From positions 136,001 to 200,000 of the forward strand of contig CAUYUJ010016059.1 in assembly GCA_963575745.1 (NCBI GenBank): 64,000 bases of DNA. Reading direction: 5' to 3'. The translations under genes and the position numbers were made by a program. The first letter of the stretch is position 1. Every line of letters starts with the position of its first letter. This DNA comes from Prorocentrum cordatum. Its lineage: Eukaryota > Sar > Dinophyceae > Prorocentrales > Prorocentraceae. Under the pieces are notes generated by a model. The model was not told the DNA's origin and did not search any database. It saw only the letters and a list, made by a program, of their open reading frames with translations. Of this stretch, positions 13,745-59,560 are shown in pieces.

Positions 13745-14345
13745 CGCCCACCCCCCTCCCCCCTTTTTGGTCCCCTCCGGAAGCTACCCCCCCCCCCCCC
13801 CCTTTCCTGCTCCGGAAGCTACCCCCTCCCCCCCCATCCCCCCTTTCCAAAGGGGGGGGCTTAGCTCCCCCCCCCCTCCCCCCTTGGACCCCCCCCGCTG
13901 GAAGCTACCCCCCACTTTTTTGCCCCCCCCCCCCCCCCCCTCCGGAAGCTACCCCCCCTCCCCCCTTTTGTCGCTCCAGAAGCTACCCCTCCCCCCTCTG
14001 CACCCCCCCTGCTGGAAGCTACCCCCCTCCCTCCCCCTCCTTTGTCCAAAAAGAAGAAAAGAACTTAGCTACCCCCTCCCCCTTTGGACCCCCTCTGAAA
14101 GCTACCACCCCCCTCCCTTGAACTCCCCCTGCCGGACGATCCTCCCCCGTCGCCGTCGTCGTTGCCGTCGCCGTCGCTCGACGTTTTCGTGCGACGCCGT
14201 CGTCGTCCTCGTCGTCGTTGTCGACGCCGTAGCCGTCATTGTCGCCGTCTTCGCATGACCTCGTCGTGGTCGTCACGACGAGGACGAGGTCATGCGAAGA
14301 CGGCGACGGACGACGGACGACGCGCGACCGACGACGACGACGACC
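13745..14345. repeat. C-run repeats (GGAAGCTACCCCC) then TCG-rich tract
   Basis: About 13 copies of a GGAAGCTA motif separated by runs of 5-18 C make up 13745-14125. From 14130 the sequence is CGT/TCG-rich. The minus strand is G-run rich and could form quadruplexes. A related tract is at 19495-19730. Confidence 0.75.
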
Positions 14346-14349
14346 CAGG

Positions 14350-16030
14350 GTCAGAGAAAACGAGACCACGACTCAGGAGCTGAGAAAACGAGGAAACGAA
14401 GCAGGGTCTACCAAAACGAGACCACGGCCCAGGGGCTGAGCAAACGAGAAAACAAACCAGGATCCTCAAAAACGAGCCAGGGTCCAAGAAAACGAGACCA
14501 CGACGCAGGGGCCGAGAAAACGCGAAAACGAACCAGGGTCCGATAAAACAAGACCACGACTCAGGGGCCGACAACACGAGACAACGAGAAAACAAACAAG
14601 TGTCCGAGAAAACGAAACCACGTCCCAGGGGCCGAGAAAACCAGACAACGAGACAACGAACCAGGGCCCGAGAAAGCGAGAACACAACCCAAGGGCCGAG
14701 AAAACGATAAAAACGAGAAAACTCACCAGGGCCCGATAACACGAAACATAAACCCAGAAGTCAAGAAAACGAGAAAACGAAACAATGAACCAAGGTCCGA
14801 GAAAACACGATAACGACCCAGGGGCCGAGAACACGAGAAAACGATAAACCAAACCAAGGTCCGAGCAAACGAGACCACGACCCAGGCCGAGAAAACGCGA
14901 ATATCGGTCCTAGAAAACGAGACCACGACCCAGGAGCCGAGAAAACGAGAAAACGATAAAAAGGAATCAGGGCCCGAGAAAACGAGACCACGAACCAGGG
15001 GGCGAGAAAACGAGGCAACGCGAAAACAAACCAGCGTCCGAGAAAACGAAACCACGACCCAGGGGCCGAGAAAACAAGAAAACAATAAAACTAACCAGGG
15101 CCCGAGAAAACTTGACCACGACCCATGCGCCGAGAAAACAAGAAACGAGAACACGAACCAGGGACAGAGAAAACGAGGCCACGACCCAGGGGCAGAGACA
15201 ACGAGAAAACGAACCACGGTCAGAAAAAAACAAGTCCACGACCCAGGGGCGAAGAAAACGAGAAAACAAGAAAACGAACCAGGGCCCGAGAAAACCAAAC
15301 CACGACCCAGGGGCAGAGACAACGAGACAACGACATGGGGCCCGAGAAAACGAGACCACGACCCAGGTGCCGAGAAAACAAGAAAACGAGAAAAGGAATC
15401 AGGGCCCGAGAAAACGAGACCACGGCCAAGGGGCACAGAGAATGCGAAAACGATAAAACAAACCAGGGTCCGAGAAAACTGGACCACGACCGAGGGGCCG
15501 AGAAAACAAGAAAACGTGAAAACGAACCACGGCCCGAGAAAACGAGACCACAACCCAGGGGACGATAAAACAAGAAAACAGGACAACGAATCAGGGTCAG
15601 AGAAAACGAGACCACAACCCAGGGGTAGAGAAAACGAGAAAACAAAACAACGAACCAGGGTCCGAGAAAACGAAACAAAAACCCAGGAACCGAGAAAACG
15701 AGAAAACGAACCGGGGCCCGAGAAAGCGAGACCACGACCCAGGGGCCAAGAAAACGAGAAAACGAGAAAACGAACCAGGACCAAAGAAAACAAAACCACA
15801 ATCCAGGAGCTGAGAAACGGAGAACACGAGAAACCGAACCAGGGCCCGAGAAAACGGAACCACGATCCAGGAGCCGAGAAAACAAAAAAACGAACCAGGG
15901 TCAGAGAAAACGTGACCATGACCCAGGATCCGAGAACACGAGAAAACGAGAAGACGAACCCGGTCCGAGGAAAAATGGCACCATGACCCAGGAGCCGAGA
16001 AAACAAGAAAACGAGATCACGAACCAGGGC
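14350..16030. repeat. 56-bp minisatellite, array 1
   Basis: About 30 imperfect units of roughly 56 bp, built from GAGAAAACGAGACCACGACC and GGGGCCGAGAAAACGAGAAA segments. The 447-codon minus ORF here (14723-16066) is only F/S/R/L/V-rich repeat translation. The array ends in a (CAA)n tract at 16036-16070. Confidence 0.88.
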
Positions 16031-16079
16031 CCGAAACAACAACAACGACAACAACAACAACAACAATCATTTAAGACTG

Positions 16080-36053: not shown

Positions 36054-36272
36054 TCACTCCGCCACGAACTGCACGAACACCAGGAGCCCACTGTGCGGGA
36101 TGGTCGTGCCCGACCTGCTGTGGAGGGGCAGCCACCGGAACCCCTCGCGGACGGCGTCCAGCGCCACGGCCCGCCTCGCCATCGGCCTGCCAGTGGGCGC
36201 GTCGCGCACCTCGAACGTGAGGATGTGGAGCGGGCTGTCGGACACGTGGAAGCCGACCTCGTGGTTGAAGAC
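36054..36272 (-). CDS. PIPK-PLC exon 7: C2 end and stop
   Basis: After CTAG| the frame reads GYRPVFNHEVGFHVSDSPLH, then TFEVRDAPTGRPMARRAVAL, REGFRWLPLHSRSG and GLLVFVQFVAE-TGA. This is the second half of a PLC-type C2 domain (FEV, VRD, GFR..PL, LLVFVQF) with a natural end. The exon is followed by tandem partial copies of its own end. Confidence 0.8.
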   Translation of the reverse strand, partial: VFNHEVGFHVSDSPLHILTFEVRDAPTGRPMARRAVALDAVREGFRWLPLHSRSGTTIPHSGLLVFVQFVAE

Positions 36273-39200
36273 GGGGCGGTACCTAGGGCGAGAATGATGT
36301 CATGATGTGATTGGCTCTGGATGCGTTCCAGGATTTCCAGAGCATCTAGCGGTGCAACCTGTGCGGCACACAAGGGAATATGGGAAATCCGAGAAATCTG
36401 GGAAATCCTGGAACGTATCATTATCATGATCTCTTCTCGCCATCGCTCGGAGGTGCATCATTCACCAGATAAGCCACGATGATCCTCGATGGCCCTCGCC
36501 GAGAAAACATGCACACGTCGGAGCGATGCCAAGTCTCTCTCTTCTGGGTACCCGTCGCAGGCCACCGCGGGCGTCTGGGAAGACTGCCCGCCAGGCTCCA
36601 GCCCCACCACCACCAGCGGGCTGCTCACCGCCGCGCCCCACGCCGCGGCCAGCCCGGCCTCCAGATGTCGACATCCGAACACTACCCCACCCAACCAGTG
36701 CTTCTACGGGTCCCAAGAATGTACACCACCACCACCACCACCTCCATTCCCCCTCCCTCCTCTACCCTCCTCTTCCCCTCCTCTCCCCCTCCTCTCTTCC
36801 GGGAGAGGGACAGGGTGCGGCAGGTGGTGGTGGTGGTGCATCTTCTGGGGCCCCGTCGACTCTCCTGAATCGATGGCAGGCGGCGGTGGGGTTCGGACCT
36901 CGCCCCGTGCTCGCCGAACTCCGAACCCCGCCCCCGCCGCTCAGCGAGCTGCCTGCACCGTTGCTCGGCGAGGGCCGGCTTCGCACTGCGCCGCCGAGCC
37001 TCGTCGTGGCCCAGCGGCGCCTCCGGCCGCGGCAGGCGGTGCCCGCAGCAGACCACGAGCCGGAGCACGGAGCCGCGCCGGCGGCAGCCCGGGCGCGCGC
37101 CGTGGCCCGCCCCGGCCAGCTCCGGGGGCTTCAGCACGTAGCCGCAGCCGCCGTTGTAGCTGCGGAAGAGCCCCTCGTCGGCGGCGGACAAACCTCCCTT
37201 TCGTAAACCTCCCCTGAGGGAAAGCGGCCTATAGGACCGAAACCGACGGACCTGGACCCGCAGAAATGACGGCCGCGACGCCCTCTCGCGAACCGAAAAC
37301 GGCGAATTCCTTAATCGACGTGTCAGGGTAGGAGGTCTATCAACCTCCGACCTCGTTCATGAGGAGGCCGGCGTCGGGCGTCTGGTAGTTCATGGCGACC
37401 ATCTGCACCCCACAGGACCAGAGCGGGAGCGGGTCCACGTTGCCAGAGGCGATCCTCGTGCCCTCCGGGTAGGCCCGCTGCAGGTACTGCGAGTTCCAGG
37501 CCCTCAGGGAGTCCTCTCCCGCGGAGTGGCGGAGCTTGAGCACCTTGCTGGCCGTCATCGAACTGACGTGGCAGTGCCACCTCGCGTCCGGGTCAGCCGC
37601 GCAGCACTCCCTGGGCGACTCTGCTGGCCCGAGCTCCGGGCCTCCTGGCTGCCGGATCTCGGTCTTCTCGCGGCTGAGTAGCTTCTTCGTGGGCAGCGCC
37701 ACGCACCGGTCGTAGCTTGGCAGCGGCCGATTGCAGCGGTCGCAGCAGCCCAGGGCCGACTTTACCAGGAAGCGCCCCCTGGCCGCCCAGGGTGACACCA
37801 CGCCGAACCTGTCGAAGTCGATGCTGCCCCTCTCCTCGTCCCAGGGCGGCATCAGCAGGCGGCTCCCTAGCACCCTCACCAAGATGTCTCCCTGCCTTAT
37901 GCGCTGCAGCGACGAGCAGTGCTGCTCGACGGAGATTATCACGGGGTACTCCGACGCCACGAAGGCGTGGTCGGCGATAGCCTGAATGACGTCCTCGAAC
38001 AGAACCTCCGTCGTTACTGCATACCCGTGCTTCACCACAGGCTCCCCGTCCGCGCCGTCCCAAACATCGACTTCGACGCTGCGGCAACCGGTTCGCAGGA
38101 CCTCCACGTAGCGCAGGACCGAAGACCGGCTGCTCAGCTGGTTACCCTCCAGGTAGGTGTTGTGGGACGTCTCCACGAAGTACGCCGCGAGCGGGCGCGT
38201 CATGTCCTGGAAGACGGGGCGCTTCGCGGGGTCCATGAGGGAGTTGCCTGGGGAGCACAGGAGGTGCGCCAAGCCGACCGGCGAGAGGCACTTGTTCTTC
38301 GTGACCAGGGGTGGTAGCATGCTCGCGAGGAGCCGCCTCACCTGGCTGACCGACGGCGCCGGGGCGACTCGCTGCACCTCCGCGAAGAGCCTGACGATTC
38401 CATCGATCGGCACGCAGTCCTCGGGCTCGTGTCGCGCGTCTGCCGAGGCGAGGCGGTGGACAAATCCGAGGACGACCTTGCCGTGCGCGCAGTCGATGTA
38501 ACGCAGCATCCGCCGGAAGTCTGCCAGCTGGACCACCCGCCCAGCGCCGATCTGCCTGCCCCCGCGCGCCCGGCGGCCCTCCCGCGCCTCGCGCATGTAC
38601 CGGGAGAGCACCTCCTGGCCCTCCGCGTCGTTGATGTTCATCTCCCGCCACAGCGCTTTGACCTTTGGCAGCCCCAGGCTGCCCGTGCCGTCCGTGTCGA
38701 CGAAGCCGAAGATCCACTTGACGCGCCGCTTCTCCTTGGGCGTCCCTCAATGGGGGGGGCGATACGTAAATGGGGGGGAAGAAAGGTGCACCCCTCGGGC
38801 CCCGAACCCCCTCTTGGGCCCTAAAGGACCCCTTTCAAGGGCCCTAAAGAGCCCCTTTTCTGTAGCACCCTTTGCCCCCCCATTTAGCGCCCCCCCCCAT
38901 TACGCGATGCCCAATCTCCCAGCGGCGCTCCGCCTCTGGGCCCGTGAGGTAGGGCTCCAGCGGGCCCAGGCGGACGCACCTTGCCGCCAGCAGCACGGCC
39001 CCGACCTCGGCCTCGGACAGGTAGCCCTCGGCGGACCCCAGGAAGGCCGACGCCGCCGGGGAGAGAGCCAGGTGCGGCTGCGCGTCCGCGGTGGCATGCC
39101 CCTGCGACCTGGCGGCGGCGACGGCGGCGGACGTCACCTCCTCCACGTCCTCGACGTTCGCCTCCGCGTATGCCGCTGCCACCTCCAGCGCGGTGACCCA

Positions 39201-41369
39201 TAACTTCGCCTGGCGCCGGCTGGGCGCTGTGCAACGCAAAGGAGCGTCGTCGGCCTCGACCGTGAAACGCCGCGACTCAACGGGCTCCGCCTCGACCTTG
39301 ATGGGGGTCTTGCACGCGATGCAGTAACGGTCGCTGGGCCGGTGGTTGGTAAGGGATAAGTAGACGCGGCGGATCTTGTAGCACGCCACTGCGGAGGTCG
39401 GCCGCTTCTGCCCGAAAAGTCCCCTGGACATCACCTGAGCGATGACAAGAAACGGGTCTTACGCATGATGGAATATCCATCTCACGCTGCGGCTTACGCG
39501 GGCTGCCAGCGAAGCACGCTACATTGGAAGCGAGAGCGCTTGTGCGCGAGCTTTTGCGGGAAGCTCGCGCGTGAATGGCGGCGCAATCGACCTCGTTTTG
39601 ATATGTTTTGCGTTGATGTTTGTTGTTGTGTTTGTTTGTGCTTCTTGTTGTGTGCATCGCTCACCTGAAAGACGAGCGCGTGGCGGTCCATGTCCAAGAA
39701 CGCCTCCACCTCCTCGGGTTGGCTGCGGAATAGCCCCCCCGTGCCGCGCAGGAGCTGCAGGTGCCCCCCGCACCTCACTGCAAAATCCACCGACTCGTCC
39801 ATCGTCACCTCCTCGCTGCCGCCCTGCGGCAGTCCGACGGCCAGCGAGAGCCTCGCCATGGGGAGGGGGGGCACGGAGGCGACCAGGCTGTCGTTTTCGG
39901 ACGTGTCTGGCTGGGTCGCCTCTTCAGCGTGGCCCACCCGTCCCCGGGGCACCGCAAACGTCGGGCGAGGGATTGTGCCGTTGTCTATGCCCGTCTGCAA
40001 GCGGTGGACGAACCTGGCAACACGGTCTCCAGGCTCCCGGAAGGTCTGCACCTTGCCCAGGAACGAAGTTTTGAAACGCCTCGCGTAGTAGTCAGGGGGC
40101 GCAGTGTCGATCTCGTGCACCCAGCCCAAGCTCATGGACTTCACAGCGTGGGCCAGACACTTGCGCACGTCGTAGGATTGCAAGATGTCTATGATGCCAA
40201 TGTGGTACACCACCCGCCTCGCCGCCTGGTCCCTCACGAGGGTGCACTGGTAGTGCGGCTCGAAGCCCCGCACGACCGCCAATGGGGATGCGATGCCCAG
40301 CTGGGGCACGAGCTGCTCTGCCTTCGGCCGGCAGTCCTCCTCACAGTAGTGGACACCGAGTGCGACGGAGTAGTCCATCACGCGCCAGCCGCGGAGGAAG
40401 CGGGTGTCCTTCTTCAGCGCGTGCAGGAGTTCTACCTTGTGCTTGAAGTCGGCGATGCCGATGATCTTGTCGGCGAAGTTCAGGTCTTTGAGCACAACGC
40501 CCGACCTTGGATTGACCCAACGGTCCTCCGTGGTGCCCTTGAGATCGTAAATCCAATGCGGCTTGAAGCGTGCCGTGCAGAACACGTTGTTCATGACCAC
40601 CAGTGTTAAGCGCTGGCGCTCGTGCCTCACATCGAATGCGCCGAAGAAGCGGCAGATCAGAGAGTTCCTATTCGCCGCGAAGTGCTGCGCGTAGCCGTCC
40701 AGCCCGTCGAGCAGCGTCCTGAGCTCGCCCCTGCTGATGGACTTGATGACGAAGAGCCCGTCCGCGGAATACCAGAACAGGCTGCCGCTCTTGCCGGCGG
40801 CCTGCAGGGAGCCCCCCTCGAGCTCCTCGTCGCAGAGGCTCGCCCAGAAGGCGTCCTCGGACATCCCCCACATGGAGCGGAGCTGCATGAACTGGCGCGG
40901 CTCTATCGCGGCCAGCTCGCAGTCGGCCCCGCGCTGCTCTCGGGTCGGGCGAAAGGGGGGGATAGCAAAAGGGGGGTTTGGGAATCAGCTCACGTAGCTG
41001 ATTTTCACGGCGCCTCCCGGCGCCGGAGGCGGCTACGTATCGAGGACTGGGCCCCTCGGTGAGGCCGAAGTCAGCTGCACGCAGCAAATTTCGTATTTCC
41101 CCCCTTTCCCAACCCCCCCCCTGTCGTCCGGCTCGATGCTCGTGCGCCTGCCCCGCCCCCCCGCACGTGCGCACGGCCCGCAGCCCGGACCGTATGCGCT
41201 CCCGCAGCTCCGCCGCCGCTGGGCTGACCCGGGCCTTCTCGGGCTTGCCCCTGCCCTGCGCCCGCTTCGAGCCGCAGGCCTGGCTCTGCAGCAGCAGCTG
41301 GGCCCGCCCGTGTTCGTCCTCTCCCCGGCGGGCCAACCAGCGCGCCAACCGGCGGATGTCGGAGGAGAG
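36054..41369 (-). CDS. PIP kinase - phospholipase C fusion protein (PIPK-PH-EF-X-Y-C2)
   Basis: Minus-strand exons: 41369 to about 41139; 40933-39665; 39434-38906; 38745-37352; 37173 to about 36861; about 36703-36552; 36272-36054 (TGA). Together about 1,365 residues. The kinase should phosphorylate phosphatidylinositol monophosphate to PI(4,5)P2. The C-terminal part is a delta-like PLC that cleaves PI(4,5)P2 to IP3 and diacylglycerol at membranes with Ca2+. The kinase and the start of the PH domain share one uninterrupted exon of 423 codons, so the join does not depend on splice prediction. The next intron is phase 0 and completes the PH domain. Catalytic residues of both enzymes are present. 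The N-terminal start is not established and more 5' exons are likely. Boundaries of exons 1, 5 and 6 are approximate. Confidence 0.82.
36273..36551 (-). other. PIPK-PLC intron 6
   Basis: 279 bp, GT-AG, phase 2 (GACGG|GTACCC ... CCCTAG|GTACC). It contains GATGGCCCTCGCCGAG and AGCGATGCCAAG, shared with the intergenic repeat at 33478-33540. No clear terminal inverted repeats. Confidence 0.65.
36552..36703 (-). CDS. PIPK-PLC exon 6: C2 middle
   Basis: It reads LEAGLAAAWGAAVSSPLVVV, then GLEPGGQSSQTPAVACDG. This aligns in order with the PLC C2 strand that carries the first Ca2+-binding loop and the RQT segment before NPVW. It ends GACGG|GTACCC (phase 2), which joins the next exon to give ACDGYRPVFN. 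Confidence 0.62.
36704..36860 (-). mobile_element. TIR element, family 8, forming PIPK-PLC intron 5
   Basis: About 157 bp. The ends carry GTCGACGGGGCCCCAGAAGA and, inverted, CTACGGGTCCCAAGAATGTA, both followed inward by (CCA)n. The inverted repeats of about 35 bp cover both intron ends. The interior is CCT-rich. Confidence 0.72.
36861..37173 (-). CDS. PIPK-PLC exon 5: end of Y and start of C2
   Basis: It begins GLFRSYNGGCGYVLKPPEL, the invariant end of the PLC Y domain, followed by SVLRLVVCCGHRLPRPEA, the first C2 strand. The acceptor GACGAG|GGG continues phase 0 from exon 4. The region beyond LPRPEA (an Arg/Ala-rich stretch) is not typical of C2. The donor is uncertain: GTCGACGG at the edge of the TIR element is attractive, but its phase is one base off the next exon. 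Confidence 0.72.
37174..37351 (-). other. PIPK-PLC intron 4
   Basis: 178 bp, GT-AG, phase 0 (AACGAG|GTCGGAGG ... GACGAG|GGG). Only weak inverted similarity at the ends (AGGTTGATAGACCTCC near one end, GGGGAGGTTT near the other). Not assigned to a family. Confidence 0.65.
37352..38745 (-). CDS. PIPK-PLC exon 4: EF-hand, PI-PLC X and Y catalytic domains
   Basis: 1394 bases, 464 codons in the predicted phase. It starts KRRVKWIFGFVDTDGTGSL, an EF loop with D, D, T and S at positions 1, 3, 5 and 7 but Lys at position 12. The X domain has FVETSHNTYL with the first catalytic His (about 38165), EVDVWDG (Glu and Asp Ca2+ ligands, about 38070), KHGY with the second catalytic His (about 38025) and ISVEQHCS (Glu ligand, about 37925). 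All five key PLC-delta positions are kept. The Y domain has RAYPEGTRIASGNVDPLPLW and VQMVAMNYQTPD. The X-Y linker is short and lacks SH2/SH3 domains, so it is delta-like. Confidence 0.9.
38746..38905 (-). mobile_element. TIR element, family 7, forming PIPK-PLC intron 3 (GC-AG)
   Basis: About 160 bp with long imperfect terminal inverted repeats: plus-strand AATGGGGGGGGCGATACGTA at the left, and AATGGGGGGGGGGCGCTAAA on the minus strand at the right, each followed inward by ATGGGGGGG and a GGTGC motif. Frame continuity requires a GC donor at 38905 and AG ending at 38746. Confidence 0.75.
38906..39434 (-). CDS. PIPK-PLC exon 3: rest of PH domain and EF-region start
   Basis: It continues in phase 0 as KIRRVYLSLTNHRPSDRY, and then RFTVEADDAPLRCTAPSRRQ and AKLWVTALEVA. 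The last block matches the end of PLC-delta PH domains, where a Trp helix follows the APS motif. A helical stretch with YLSEAEVGAVLLAAR follows, probably the first degenerate EF-hand. The PH domain would target PIP2 or a related headgroup. The donor reads C|GCGTAATGG: taking GC as donor (phase 1) restores the frame with the next exon, whereas GT two bases later does not. Confidence 0.78.
39435..39664 (-). mobile_element. Family 1 introner forming PIPK-PLC intron 2
   Basis: 230 bp, GT-AG, phase 0, splitting the PH domain. Minus strand: TTTCAG|GTGAGCGATG ... CATCGCTCAG|GTGATG; TGAGCGATG and CATCGCTCA are exact inverse repeats. The core GCGGCTTACGCGGGCTGCCA and GACCTCGTTTTG match the other family 1 copies, including the intron at 9429-9569. 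Confidence 0.85.
39665..40933 (-). CDS. PIPK-PLC exon 2: PIP kinase catalytic domain, linker, start of PH domain
   Basis: Kinase landmarks in order: LRSMWGMSEDAFWASL (fold entry, about 40880); G-loop GKSGSLFWYSADG; catalytic Lys in FVIKSIS (about 40740); VVMNNVF; YDLKGTTEDRW (DLKG motif, about 40545); VLKDLNF; MDYSVALGVHY (about 40380); GIIDILQSYD with the metal-binding Asp (about 40190); and an activation loop HEIDTAPPDYYARRF (about 40090). All the hallmarks of type I/II PIP kinases are present. I cannot decide between 4- and 5-kinase specificity. A linker of about 110 residues follows, then GGHLQLLRGTGGLF and AFLDMDRHALVFQ, the first PH strands. The exon ends at a GTGAGC donor. Confidence 0.85.
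40941..41140 (-). mobile_element. TIR element, family 5, forming PIPK-PLC intron 1
   Basis: About 200 bp. Left end CGGGTCGGGCGAAAGGGGGG, right end inverted GAGCCGGACGACAGGGGGGG. The interior has CGGCGCCTCCCGGCGCCGGA. It is shared with the split copy at 31873-32889. The acceptor GAGAGCAG is clear, the donor is not. Confidence 0.68.
41139..41369 (-). CDS. PIPK-PLC exon 1 (N-terminal part of the kinase)
   Basis: After an acceptor CGCGCAG|CTCTCC the frame reads LSSDIRRLARWLARRGEDEH, a Gln/Ala-rich helical stretch, and ELRERIRSGLRAVRTCGG, which corresponds to the helix opening the PIP kinase fold (pattern IQ.GI). It precedes the FMQLRSMWGMSEDAF block of the next exon at the spacing seen in PIP kinases. 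The donor side has no GT; a GA start (GAGCCGGACG) at the TIR element edge is the best guess. Confidence 0.55.
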
Positions 41370-41463
41370 CTGCGCGAGACCACATCGGTGAAACAAAAGC
41401 GCCTCCAATTCGCTCAAAATCGGTCCCCCGGCCTCTCCCGGGGTCCCAAAGTGGAGAAACAAA

Positions 41464-41596
41464 AAGGCACCGATACCGCTGCTCCCTAGTGTGCGTGCTG
41501 ATCAGGATCTCGAGGCGAATCCAGCGGTGGCGACGAGGGCCTCCCAGGAGGCCCAAAGGGGCCAAACGAGACAATGGTGGCGGTATCAGTGCCTTT
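41464..41596. mobile_element. Small TIR element, family 13
   Basis: 133 bp with 17-bp inverted ends AAAGGCACCGATACCGC and GCGGTATCAGTGCCTTT (one mismatch). It lies just upstream of PIPK-PLC exon 1, possibly in a further 5' intron. Confidence 0.7.
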
Positions 41597-41839
41597 CCAG
41601 TTTGCCGAGCTGCGTTCAGACGTGGCCACGAGGGCCCCCCGAGGGCCAACAAGGGACCCTTGCCTCAGCGCCTCAGCTGCGCCGATGCGCCACACGCAAC
41701 ACGTAGCGTTTCGATACGGAACTCAACACGCAGATTGGTAACGTCGGTTTGACGCGATGCGTTCGCCAAAATGTGGGCCAATACGTTGAGCCAACACGCA
41801 ACGCAACGCATTGGCACGGACGTTTTGAGAATTGTACGT

Positions 41840-42160
41840 GCTGCGTTTCAGCACGGGCGCATCAGGGCAGCTAAGCTCCGCGGGCCTTCCTCCGAGGATG
41901 GCCTCCGCGGCCACGGCCAGGGCGGCGAGCTTCGCCGAGCGCAGCGCCGCCGCCGCGAGCAGCGCGAGCACGCCGCCGCGGCGCCTTGGCGTGGGGGCGA
42001 GGCCGCGCGCAACGGCGGCCGCCGCCGGGCCGGCCCGCGCGGCAGGCGGCGGCCGTGTGCCGCGCATGCAGCGCGGGGCGCGCCGCGGGCCGCGCCGCCG
42101 CGCCGCAGGGGGCCCTCCGCGAGGCTCCAGGCCATGGCGGGCCGCTGCCGGGGCTCGGGC
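41840..42160. other. Very GC-rich segment, coding on either strand possible
   Basis: All six frames are largely open because of the base composition. The minus frame GGVLALLAAAALRSAKLAAL resembles a hydrophobic helix and could be an upstream PIPK exon. The plus frame resembles an Ala/Arg-rich leader. Neither is supported by splice sites. Confidence 0.2.
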
Positions 42161-53605: not shown

Positions 53606-53633
53606 CATCCATACCATCAGCATGTTCCAGTAC

Positions 53634-56600
53634 GTTAGAGCTCCGTGGGAGCTCTAACATGGCTTGTTAGAGCTCCAACGGAGCTCTAACATAACATGTT
53701 CGAGTATGTTAGAGCTCCCTGGGAGCTCTAACATGGTATGTTAGAGCTCCGTGGGTGCTCTAACATGGTATGTTAGAGCTCCAACGGAGCTCTAACATAG
53801 CATGTTCCAGTATGTTAGAGCTCCCTGGGAGCTCTAACATGGTATGTTAGAGCTCCGTGGGAGCTCTAACATGGCTTGTTAGAGCTCCAACGGAACTCTA
53901 ACATAGCATGTTCGAGTATGTTAGAACTCCCTGGGAGCTCTAACATGGCATGTTAGAGCTCCAACGGAGCTCTAACATGGCATGTTCGAGCTCCAACGGA
54001 GCTCTAACATTGCATGTTCCAGTATGCTAGAGCTTCCTGGGAGCTCTAACATGGTATGTTAGAGCTCCGTGGGAGCTCGAACATGGCTTGTTAGAGCTCC
54101 AACGGAGCTCTAACATAGCATGTTCGAGTATGTTAGAGCTCCCTGGGAGCTCTAACATGCTATATTAGAGCTCCCATGTTAGAGCTCCCTGGGAGCTCTA
54201 CAAATACCGAGCTCCACGGAGCTTTAACATAGCATGTTAGAGCTCCGTGGGAGCTCCTGGGAGCTCTAACATGGTATGTTAGAGCTCCGTGGGAGCTCTA
54301 ACATGGCTTGTTAGAGCTCCAACGGAGCTCTAACATAGCATGTTCCAGTATGTTAGAGCTCCCGGGAGCTCTAACATGGTATGTTAGAGCTCCGTGGGAG
54401 CTCTAACATGGCTTGTTAGAGCTCCAACGGAGCTCTAACATAGCATGTTCGAGTATGTTAGAGCTCCCTGGGAGCTCTAACATGCTATATTAGAGCTCCC
54501 ATGTTAGAGCTCCCTGGGAGCTCTAAAATACCGAGCTCCAACGGAGCTTTAACATAGCATGTTAGAGCTCAGTGGGAGCTCCCTGGGAGCTCTAACATGG
54601 TATGTTAGAGCTCCGTGGGAGCTCTAACATAGCATGTTCCAGTATGTTAGAGCTCCCTGGGAGCTCTACATGGCATGTTAGAGAGCTCTAACAGAGCTCC
54701 AACGGAGCTCTAACATAGCATGCTCCATGTTCCAGTATGTTAGAGCTCCCTGGGAGCTCTAACATGGTATGCTAGAGCTCCGTGGGAGCTCTAACATGGA
54801 TTGTTAGAGCTCCAACGGAGCTCTAACATAGCATGTTCGAGTATGTTAGAGCTCCCTGGGAGCTCTAGCATGCTATATTAGAGCTCCCATCTTAGAGCTC
54901 CCTGGGAGCTCTAACATACCGAGCTACAACGGAGCTTTATCATATCGTGTTAGAGCTCAGTGGGAGCTCCCTGGGAGCTCTGACATGGTATGTTAGAGCT
55001 CCGTGGGAGCTCTAAGATGGCTTGTTAGAGCTCCAACGGAGCTCTAACATGGTATGTTCGGGTATGTTAGAGCTCTCTGGGAGCTCTAACATGGTATATT
55101 AGAGCTCCCTGGGAGCTCTAACATGGCTTGTTAGAGCTCCAACGGACCTTTAACCTAGCATGTTCGAATACGTTAGAGCTCCCAGGGAGCTCTAACTTGC
55201 TATTTTAGAGCTCCCATGTCAGAGCTCCCTGGGAGCTCTAAAATACCGAGCTCCAACGGAGCTTTAACATAGCATATTAGAGCTCAGTGGGAGCTCCCTG
55301 GGAGCTCTAACATGGTACGTTAGAGCTCCAAAAGAGCTCTAACATGGCTTGTTAGAGCTCCAACGGAGCTCTAACATAGCATGCTCGAGTATGTTAGGGC
55401 TCCCTGGGAACTCTAACGTGGTATGTTAGAGCTCCAGCGGAGCTCTAACATACCATGTTCCAGTATGTTAGAGCTCCCCGGGAGCTCTAACATGGTATGT
55501 TAGAGCTCCGCGGGAGCTCTAACATGGCATGTTCCAGTATGTTAGAGCTCCCTGGGAGCTCTAACATGCTATGTTAGAGCTCCCCTTAGAGCTCCCTGGG
55601 AGCTCTAACATACCGAGCTCCAACGGAGCTTTAACATATCATGTTAGAGCTCCGTGGGAGCCCCCTGGGAGCTCTAACATGGTATGTTAGAGGTGGAGTC
55701 TAACGGAGCTCTGACATCCATATGTAGAGCTCCCTGGGAGCTCTAACATGGTATGTTAGAGCTCCGTGGAGCTCTAACATGGCTTGTTAGAGCTCCAACG
55801 GAGCTCTAACATAGCATGTTCGAGTATGTTAGAGCTCCCTGGGAGCTCGAACATGGTATGTTAGAGCTCCGTGGGAGCTCTAACATGGCATGTTAGAGCT
55901 CCAGCGGAGCTCTAACATAGCATGTTCCAGTATGTTAAAGCTCCCTGGGAGCTCTAACATGGTATGTTAGAGCTCCGTGGGAGCTCTAACATGGCTTGTT
56001 AGAGCTCCAACGGAGCCCGAACATAGCATGTTCGAGTATGTTAGAGCTCCCTGGGAGCTCTAACGTGCTACGTTGAGCTCCCATGTTAGAGCTCCCTGGG
56101 AGCTCTAACATACCGAGCTCCAACGGAGCTTTAACATAGCATGTTAGATCTCAGTGGGAGCTCCCTGGGAGCTTAACATGGTATGTTAGAGCTCCCTGGG
56201 CGCTCTAACATGGTATGTTAGAGCTCCCACGGAGCTCTCACATAGCATGTTCCAGTATGTTAGAGCTCCCTGGGAGCTCTAACATGGCATGTTCGAGCTC
56301 CCAGGGAGCTCTAACATGGCTTGTTAGAGCTCCAAAAGAGCTCTGACATAGCATGTTCGAGTATGTTAGAGCTCCCTGGGAGCTCTAACATGGTATGTTA
56401 GAGCTCCGTGGGAGCTCCATGGCGTTAGAGCTCCAACGGAGCTCTAACATAGCATGTTCGAGTATGTTAGAGCTCCCTGGGAGCTCTAACATGCTATATT
56501 AGAGCTCCCATGTTAAAGCTCCCTGGGAGCTCTAAACTACCGAGCTCCCACGGAGCTATAACATAGCATATTAGAGCTCAGTGGGAGCTCCCTGGGAGCT

Positions 56601-56962
56601 CTAACATGGTACGTTAGAGCTCAAGCGGAGCTCTAACATAGCATGTTCGAGTATGCTAGAGCTCCCTGGGAGCTCTAACATGGTATGTTAGAGCTCCAAC
56701 GGAGCTCTAACATGGCATGTTAGAGCCCCAACGGAGCTCTACCATAGCATGTTCCAGAATGTTAGAGCTCCCTGGGAGATCTAACATGGTATGTTAGAGC
56801 TCCGTGGGAGCTCTACCATACTATAGCATGCTACGTTAGAGCTCCATTGGAGCTCTAACATACCATGTTAGAGCTCCCAGGGAGCTCTAACATACTCGAA
56901 CTTGCTATGTTAGAGCTCCCTGGAAGCTCTAACATAGCATGTTAGAGCTCCCACGGAGCTTT
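53634..56962. repeat. Palindromic satellite array (GAGCTC-rich)
   Basis: About 3.3 kb made almost entirely of short palindromes of about 29 bp, with arms TGTTAGAGCTCC and GGAGCTCTAACA around a variable 2-5 base centre (CTG, GTG, AA, and so on), spaced about 32 bp. A loose higher-order unit of about 106 bp has three palindromes and a GTTCGAGTATG or GTTCCAGTATG spacer. No ORF of note. Each unit could fold as a hairpin or extrude as a cruciform. Confidence 0.95.
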
Positions 56963-57089
56963 ACACGTCGGTCGGAAGAAGTGCGTAAAACATGAAGTAG
57001 GAAGGCGGAAGAAGTAGATTGCGTTCGAGGCCGCCCGAAAAACATCAACAACAATTACAAGAAGTAGATTACAAATCTTCCGGGCCCTG

Positions 57090-59560
57090 TCTCAGCGGCA
57101 CGCAATTGCCCTGGGTCGATCGGACCCTCGACCAAGGAGCGGCTGGGCCGAGGGCAGAGCGACCGAACAGGCAGCCGAGGGGCCAGGCGCGACCAGAGCC
57201 ACCGACGGGCAACAGCAACCAACGAAAAACAGCAAAAGCAGCTAAGGAGTGGCGGGGCCGACGGGCAACAGAAAATAACCAAAAACAGCCGAAAACAGCC
57301 GAGGAGTGGCTGGGCCGACGGCAGAGCGACCGATGAGGCAGCCGAGGGGCCAGGCGCGGCTCTCGGTCGCTCGGCCCCTGGGGCGCCCCTTCCCTGTCTG
57401 GTTTTGGTTGGATTTGGTTGTTTTCGGTTGTCCGTCGGGTTTTCTGGTCGCCCGTGGCCCTTGGGCTGGCTCTCGGTCGCTCGGCCCCTGGGGTGCCCCT
57501 CCCCTGTCTGGTTTTGGTTGTTTTCGGTTGTCTGTCGGTTGTTCTGGTCGTACCTGGGCCCTGGGCTGGCTCTCGGTCGCTCGGCCCCTGGGGGCGCCCC
57601 TTCCTTGTTTGGTTGTGGTTGTTTTCGGTTGTCCGTCGATTGTCCTGGTCGTCCCTGAGTCGGGCTGGCTCTCGGCCGCTCGGCCCCTGGGGGTGCCCCT
57701 TCCTTGTCTGGTGTTGGTTGTTTTCGGTTGTCTGTTGGTTGTTTCGGTCGCTCCTGGACCCTGGGCTGGCTCTCGGTCGCTCGGCCCTTGGGGTGTCCCT
57801 TCCGCGTTTGGTTTTTGTTGTTTTCGGTTGTCCGTCGGTTGTTCTGGTCGCCCGTGGCCCCTGGGCTGGCTCTCGGTCGCTCGGCCCCTGGGGCGCCCCG
57901 CCCCTGTTTGGTTTTGGCTGGTTTCGGTTCTCCGTCGGTTGTTCTGGTCGCTGCTGGCCCCTGGGCTGGCTCTCGGTCGTTCGGCCCCTTGGGGTGCCCC
58001 TTCCCTGTCTGTTTTTTGTTGTTTTCGGTTGTCCGTCGGTTGTTTCGGTCGCCCGTGGCCCCTGGGCTGGCTCTCGGTCGCTCGGCCCCTGGGGGTGCCC
58101 CTTCCCTGTCTGGTGTTGGTTGTGTTCGATTGTCTGTCGGTTGTTCTGGTCGTCCCTGGCTCCTGGGCTGACTCTCGGTCGCTCGGCCCCTGGGGGTGTC
58201 CCTTCCTTGTTTTGTTTTGGTTGTTTTCAATTGTCTGTCAGTTGTTTCGGTCGCTCCTGGCCCCTGGGCTGGCTCTCGGTCGCTCGGCCCCTGGGGGTGC
58301 CCCTTCCCTGTCTGGTTTTGGTTGTTGTCGGTTGTCCGCGGGTTGTTCTGGTCGCCCCTCGCTCCTGGGCTGGCTCTCGGCCGCTCGGCCCCTGGGGCGC
58401 CCCTTCCTTGTCTGGTGTTGGTTGTTTTCGGTTGTCTGTCGGTTGTTCTTGTCGCTCCAAGCCCCTGGGTTGGCTCTCGGTCGCTCGGCCCCTTGGCTGC
58501 CCCTTCCTTGTGTGGTTTTGGTTGTTTTCGGTTGTCTGTCGGTCGTTTCGGTCGCTCCTGACCCTGGGCTGGCTCTCGGTCGCTCGGCCCTTGGGGGGTC
58601 CCTTCCCTGTTTGGTTTTGGTTGTTTTCGGTTGTCTGTCGGTTGTTCTGGTCGTCCCTCGCTCCTGGGCTGGCTCTCGGTCGCTCGGCCCCTGGGGCGCC
58701 CCTTCCCTATCTGGTTTTGGTTGTTTCGGTTGTCTGTCGGTTTTTTCGGTCGCTCCTGGCCCCTGGGCTGGCTCTCGGTCGCTCGGCCCCTGGGGGTGCC
58801 CCTTCCTTGTTTGGTTTTGGTCGTTTTCGGTTGTCCGTCGGTTGTTCTGGGCGCTCCTGGCCCCTGGGTTGGCTCTCGGTCGCTCGGCCCCTTGGGGTGC
58901 CCCTTCCCTGTCTGGTTTTGGTTGTTGTCGGTTGTCCGCGGGTTGTTCTGGTCGGCCCTGGCTCCTGGGTTGGCTCTCGGTCGCTCGGCCCCTGGGGCGC
59001 CCCTTCCCTGTCTGGTTTTGGTTGTTTTCGGTTGTCCGTCGGTTGATCAGGTCGCTCCTGGCCCTTCGGCTGGCTCTCGGTCGCTCGGCCCCTGGGGGTG
59101 TCCCTTCCTTGTTTGGTTTTGGTTGTTTTCGGTTGTCTGTCGGTTGTTTCGGTCGCCCGTGGCCCCTGGGCTGGCTTTCGGTCGCTCGGCCCCTGGGGTG
59201 CCCCTTCCCTATCTGGTTTTGGTTGTTTTCGGTTGTCTGTCGGTTGTTCCGGTCGCTCCTGGCCCCTGGGCTGGCCCTCGGTCGCTCGGCCCCTGGGGGT
59301 GCCCCTTCCTTGTTTGGTTTTGGTTGTTTTCGGTTGTCTGTCGGTTGTTCTGGTCGCTCCTGGCCCCTGGGCTGGCTCTCGGTCGCTCGGCCCTTGGGGC
59401 GCCCCTTCCCTGTCTGGTTTTGGTGTCTGGTTGTCGGTCGCTCGGCCCCTTGGGGTGCCCCTTCCCTATCTGGTTTTGGTTGTTTTCGGTTGTCCGTGGG
59501 TTGTTCTGGTCGTTCCTGGCTCCTGGGCTGGCTCTCGGTCGCTCGGCCCCTGGGGGTGCG
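57090..59560. repeat. Minisatellite of about 100 bp with an inverted segment
   Basis: About 22 direct units contain CTCGGTCGCTCGGCCCCTGG and TTGGTTGTTTTCGGTTGTC. The first 250 bp (57090-57345) hold units in the opposite orientation, so the array has a head-to-head junction near 57350. Unit length varies (about 98-103 bp). The 754-codon plus ORF (57306-59570) and the long minus ORF are repeat translations without family features. Confidence 0.92.

Follow-up and report, generated by a model that had tools for sequence, protein, structure and literature searches.

A phosphatidylinositol phosphate kinase and a phospholipase C in one dinoflagellate reading frame

Introduction

Enzymes that make and destroy one lipid messenger are normally separate and are brought together by scaffolds. 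A locus of the dinoflagellate Prorocentrum cordatum raises the question of whether both activities can reside in a single polypeptide. It lies in a stretch of 64,000 nucleotides (the window: contig CAUYUJ010016059.1, positions 136,001 to 200,000, assembly GCA_963575745.1; coordinates below count from its first letter) and combines a phosphatidylinositol phosphate (PIP) kinase with a phospholipase C (PLC). The kinase, PLC X, PLC Y and C2 regions are in one frame and are conserved as one protein in other dinoflagellates. Judging from the sequence, we consider it moderately likely that one gene encodes one polypeptide in which a PIP kinase precedes a PLC with delta-like domain order, both halves being active on the same membrane patch.

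Gene model and exon structure

Exon edges were placed by tblastn of relatives (numbered P0001 onwards) and the frame was then checked across the joins; three edges are inferred, the 5′ one of the kinase exon and two within C2. The modelled features are as follows.

40936-36054 (-): fusion gene, six exons joined into a single 1,226-codon frame with no internal stops
39665-40936 (-): exon with the PIP kinase (about 40912-40060), a linker and the first PH-like strands; 5′ edge inferred
38919-39434 (-): exon with the remaining PH-like part, including a CxxC loop, and the EF-hand-like start; from tblastn of relatives and hhalign
37352-38734 (-): exon with the EF-hand-like region, PLC X (about 38203-37757), a Cys-containing X-Y linker and most of PLC Y (about 37591-37352); from Pfam and tblastn
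37754-37756 (-): Ala codon at the equivalent of rat PLC-delta1 Lys440; from an alignment column, nucleotide position by counting
37000-37173 (-): exon with the PLC Y end and C2 start; from tblastn and frame, 3′ edge chosen as a GC donor
36552-36658 (-): exon with the C2 middle; P0001 residues 1279-1305 match 36628-36548 at 70% (tblastn), 5′ edge chosen by frame
36054-36282 (-): last exon, with the C2 end and stop codon; P0001 residues 1305-1377, 70% identity, E=2.7e-25 (tblastn), and frame

From residue 3 to 1224 the spliced model shares 62.8% identity with a protein of Polarella glacialis, and in tblastn P0001 is 64% identical to the kinase exon over 40942-39665 and 62% identical over the exon at 38734-37352. 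A first-pass annotation of this DNA had placed the kinase end and the first PH strands in one exon of 423 codons; we find the kinase end, linker and first PH-like strands in one open coding exon of 424 codons. In gene order the introns have GT-AG, GA-AG, GT-AG, GC-AG and GT-AG boundaries. The first (39664-39435) is in phase 0, as had been read before, whereas the second, previously given as phase 1 GC-AG, is placed by homology at 38919/38734, in phase 0 and with a GA-AG boundary. We chose this join because it yields the ERRW-(E/Q)KRR continuity of the relatives; donors at 38910 (GC) and 38903 (GT) were rejected, as the relatives run ERRW directly into (E/Q)KRR. By eye, the ends of the introns at 38918-38735 and about 41120-40937 resemble inverted repeats, with G runs and C runs near opposite ends, and recall introner-like elements.

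Relatives with an intact N-terminus start more than 100 residues ahead of the kinase, which places the probable start of the gene upstream of the kinase exon; the outer boundary of 41369 in the first-pass annotation is possible. The candidates there are a tentative exon region and a segment within it.

41270-41169 (-): pre-kinase-like segment; weak tblastn match to P0005 residues 86-118, E=0.46
41130-42067 (-): tentative upstream exon or exons with a possible ATG and hydrophobic stretch near 42067; candidate exon limits

Hydrophobicity was scored as the 19-residue stretch on the Kyte-Doolittle scale within the first 200 residues (P0011, P0012 and P0015 are without an N-terminus). The window's candidate, after the ATG at 42067, scores 1.79 over 19 residues. 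Among 13 relatives with an intact start, eight have a stretch of at least 1.6 and nine have an N-terminal stretch exceeding every later one, the strongest being those of P0013 (2.94) and P0016 (2.73). An N-terminal membrane anchor is a possible to probable feature of the predicted protein.

Relatives and phylogeny

A homology search found 161 proteins, and domains were counted in the best 120, which are listed. The first-pass annotation had proposed a search for the same architecture in other dinoflagellates, and PIP5K and PLC-X indeed occur together in at least 14 of these 120 (P0001-P0010 and P0013-P0016), P0011 and P0012 being PLC-side fragments. The best listed relative is 63% identical over the whole query. 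Named sources of fusions are Polarella glacialis (Suessiaceae), Durusdinium trenchii (Symbiodiniaceae), Symbiodinium natans and Symbiodinium sp. CCMP2592, with P0008 from Durusdinium and P0009 and P0010 from Symbiodinium. Three fusions (P0002, P0007, P0016) are labelled as transcript open reading frames (ORFs) by their sources, and the contigs of seven more (P0003-P0006, P0013-P0015) exceed the ORF by only 75-530 bases, as would fit transcripts. Together with the open linker and the six in-frame exons, these relatives bear out the single gene first proposed.

A search starting from the kinase gave eight matches, seven in the fusion family (one being the query) and one plant FAB1, and a profile search gave 26, ten fusions and 16 without a listed PLC domain. 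The three protein searches were limited by shared words, two of them among about 8000 candidates, and the fusion counts are lower bounds. The public model of P0009 (Symbiodinium natans, 2050 residues, named TFCD) contains the fusion and further Pfam domains, and is probably an annotation join of neighbouring genes.

A FastTree phylogeny of the PLC was built from 447 columns with P0085 as root and without P0010, whose sequence is too short; its outside sample is biased to animals. The 16 family rows form one clade in it (support 0.955), and the lone PLCs P0017-P0019 are the sister group (support 0.988). The window's own genome has further PLC loci: the PLC-X profile has six matches on five contigs of the 4.13-Gb assembly, and of these five the window's contig alone also has PIP5K matches, both counts being lower bounds. 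The other PLC loci, on contigs C5758, C15896, C1391 and C15853 (L009-L011, L013-L018), resemble P0017, those on C5758 and C15896 also resembling each other. At E<=1e-4, kinase similarity to P0001 was absent from the roughly 20 kb surrounding the C15853 locus and from the 10 kb surrounding the C5758 locus and the C15896 locus each, and none was seen in the 3.4 kb examined at C1391.

Domains of the two halves

The kinase half is recognised on its single exon by PIP5K (PF01504; E=3.1e-57, 194.5 bits against a cut-off of 27) and again (E=9.3e-56) in a second Pfam run on an earlier spliced model whose join inside C2 was approximate. GKSGS, FVIK, DLKG, MDYS and IID, the hallmarks named by the first-pass annotation, are all found in the translation; we take the GxSGS glycine-rich loop, the ATP lysine, DLKG, MDYS and IID to be motifs of PIP kinases. 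In the 15 rows that include a kinase (14 relatives beside the window, P0011 and P0012 being without one) GKSG is conserved in 13 of the 14 that cover the region, DLKG in 14/15, and DYS and I[IV]D in all 15. A PDB fold search with P0010 gave ties between type I and type II PIP kinase scores; its best 50 rows cover the kinase only (ranges 76-407) and have no bearing against a PH domain.

On one exon of the PLC half, PI-PLC-X (E=2.3e-47, 160.7 bits against 23.1) and PI-PLC-Y (E=6.5e-21, 75.2 against 28.8) match clearly, as they do on the earlier spliced model (E=1e-46 and 9.4e-30). The profile searches suggested beforehand thus succeeded for PIP5K, X and Y; C2, on the earlier spliced model, fell slightly below its 22-bit cut-off (20.0 bits, E=8.5e-4), and PH had no Pfam match on single exons or on a 130-residue spliced piece. 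Profile comparison by hhalign of the PH-like region with 12 PH segments of other PLCs gave E=2.4e-5 and a probability of 51%, against 0.53 and 0.75 for the controls (kinase segment and reversed sequence); the sample is uneven, seven of the 12 segments coming from PLC-like or unnamed sequences of the same type. In P0010 this region has seven predicted strands followed by a helix, at middling confidence. Against a viral fold library nothing reached E<=0.001; PH-domain proteins make up two of the four best rows, but at E 0.014 and 0.16 they carry no weight.

The EF-hand-like region was recognised only through the fold of the relative P0011. The last residue of its first loop is Lys in the window rather than the Glu of P0013 and P0016, and a C2 Asp of the two aligned animal PLCs is replaced by Ser in the window.

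Active site of the PLC half

The first-pass annotation had held that all catalytic residues are kept. Ten of the 11 tested positions are: the catalytic and Ca2+-site residues H311, N312, E341, D343, H356 and E390 are identical, the phosphate contacts Lys438, Ser522 and Arg549 are retained, and the equivalent of Lys440 is Ala. A passage of PMC11174929 counts Lys440 among the residues for catalysis, and PMC12195575, in the part concerned, has Lys438, Lys440, Ser522 and Arg549 contacting the 4- and 5-phosphates. Because of this Ala we class the PLC half, by its domains, as a eukaryotic PI-PLC of delta-like domain order and do not file it as a PLC-delta selective for phosphatidylinositol 4,5-bisphosphate (PI(4,5)P2).

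The change is shared by most of the family. Of the 17 family rows, 16 reach this column, P0010 stopping short of it, and 14 of these 16 are non-basic there (Ala, Glu, Ser or Val), the exceptions being P0015 (Arg) and P0016 (Lys). For comparison, 104 other PLCs were taken from the homology search and P0111 was dropped, its HN motif not being found; the 103 left have 90 Lys, 6 Arg, 3 Pro, 3 Gln and 1 gap (96 basic), with many animal orthologues and 30 sequences without His356 among them, such that they are neither independent nor all active. The lone sister PLCs P0017-P0019 keep Lys.

Just after the Lys440 site, a Cys cluster (GCCxRC...YDRC or a variant, without the last Cys in P0003) occurs in 15 family rows, including all 14 that lost Lys440, and many rows have a second Cys-containing motif between this cluster and Y. 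Of 15 rows, 14 have the CxxC in the PH-like region. The most divergent fusion, P0016, has Lys440 and neither of these Cys features. Since P0016 is fused yet retains Lys, the simplest order, drawn from this one row, is probably fusion first, with the Lys440 loss and the Cys features later.

Weighing the explanations

If the protein is single and doubly active, as we prefer, the N-terminal hydrophobic stretch would perhaps anchor it in the membrane, the kinase half would phosphorylate phosphatidylinositol 4-phosphate (PI4P) or 5-phosphate (PI5P) on a shared patch, and the PLC half would split phosphoinositide, including PI(4,5)P2, into diacylglycerol and a soluble inositol phosphate, physically coupling lipid supply to hydrolysis. 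Both halves seem capable of acting at one membrane, and it is plausible that PI(4,5)P2 is made and hydrolysed by the same protein.

Several observations weigh against this reading. The Ala at the Lys440 equivalent weakens the claim of PI(4,5)P2 hydrolysis. The EF-loop and C2 changes suggest that Ca2+ control may differ from that of PLC-delta and may be weakened at these sites while the catalytic Ca2+ ligands remain. The window's own N-terminal stretch is a candidate only, and in P0006, P0008, P0009 and P0010, all Symbiodiniaceae-type relatives, the corresponding stretch scores 0.96-1.35, below their own later maximum. Two active halves are, by their motifs, not universal in the family: P0005 has GKGDN for GKSGS, SLKG for DLKG, and VVDYS, while its PLC core positions are retained except the Lys440 equivalent, making it a possible pseudokinase form of the fusion.

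The same Ala is the starting point of the best-surviving alternative, possible though unlikely, in which the polypeptide is single and its PLC mainly cuts PI4P (or phosphatidylinositol), kinase and PLC competing for or dividing one substrate. The contrast between the family (14/16 non-basic) and other PLCs (96/103 Lys or Arg), the Lys kept in P0016 and P0017-P0019, the Cys cluster immediately following in all 14 loss rows, and the place of Lys440 among the named 4- and 5-phosphate contacts (PMC12195575, same part) all speak for it. However, Lys438, Ser522 and Arg549 are retained, P0015 has Arg, seven of the 103 other PLCs also do without a basic residue there, and a different basic side chain could occupy the phosphate pocket. 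A bolder form, which we rate as rather unlikely, is that, once fused, the PLC gave up its hold on the 5-phosphate and acquired a metal-binding Cys loop next to its active site, becoming a switch at the PI4P branch point that uncouples diacylglycerol from inositol trisphosphate (IP3).

That one half is catalytically dead, serving as scaffold or lipid sensor for the other, is improbable: the degraded P0005 kinase and the altered PLC position point that way, but in the window every examined kinase motif is present with 10/11 PLC positions, and both parts align across wide divergence. In dinoflagellates a leader is trans-spliced and genes often stand in close arrays, yet two adjacent genes with separate trans-spliced mRNAs, or an assembly or annotation join, are very unlikely given the open frame from kinase end to PH start, the intact fusions in other genomes, the three transcript-labelled ORFs and the seven further fusions on scarcely longer contigs.

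Comparison with known systems

The first-pass annotation knew of no such fusion and held that a published protein of this architecture would remove its novelty. One is published: according to a single sentence of PMC9909359 (2023), 15 Symbiodiniaceae datasets contain a protein that combines PIPK and PI-PLC domains and that BLAST did not match to any other species. Like the window's, it carries both domains in one dinoflagellate protein, and the two are very probably of one family, given that the window's close relatives include P0008 from Durusdinium and P0009 and P0010 from Symbiodinium. The section concerned gives no PH, EF and C2 order, active-site check or relatives outside Symbiodiniaceae. 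New here are the presence outside Symbiodiniaceae (Polarella and P. cordatum), the domain order, and the Lys440 change with its likely timing. No other report was found, subscription papers and preprints being outside the scope of the search.

In the passages of PMC10543664 on the related apicomplexans, a PI-PLC (PH, EF, X, Y, C2) and a PI4P5K with an NCS/EF-hand Ca2+-binding domain are described as separate proteins, unlike the fusion. Compared with PLC-delta (rat PLC-delta1), the fusion has an N-terminal kinase, a Cys-containing X-Y linker and an atypical first EF loop, and has lost the Lys440 equivalent; from type I and II PIP kinases (PIP5K alpha, PIP4K2A) its kinase differs by fusion to PLC. 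A lone PIPK of Perkinsus olseni (P0122, 607 residues, only PF01504 listed) shares GKSGS, DLKGTTEDR and HEIDTEPP and a profile match over the kinase, but its alignment to the fusion stops at the kinase end.

Other features of the window

Repeats occur elsewhere in the window. Long tandem arrays at 53619-56964 have 32-, 74- and 106-base units of palindromic segments (ATGTTAGAGCTCC...GGGAGCTCTAACAT); an array at 57358-59424 has a 101/201-base unit, the 201-base form being present in about 10 copies that match at 86%; and degenerate arrays at 14331-16034, in a stretch of strong AT skew, have periods of 28 to 241 bases and CGAGAAAACGAGA-like units.

Implications

As a conserved natural fusion, this protein makes substrate channelling or competition directly testable with one purified protein, and the apparent post-fusion loss of a phosphate-binding residue offers a specific and inexpensive test of a change in PLC substrate. 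Were the branch-point switch to prove true, the kinase arm would take PI4P to PI(4,5)P2, the PLC arm would take PI4P to diacylglycerol and inositol 1,4-bisphosphate, and dinoflagellates, whose fusion-bearing members include coral symbionts, would have a diacylglycerol signal uncoupled from IP3.

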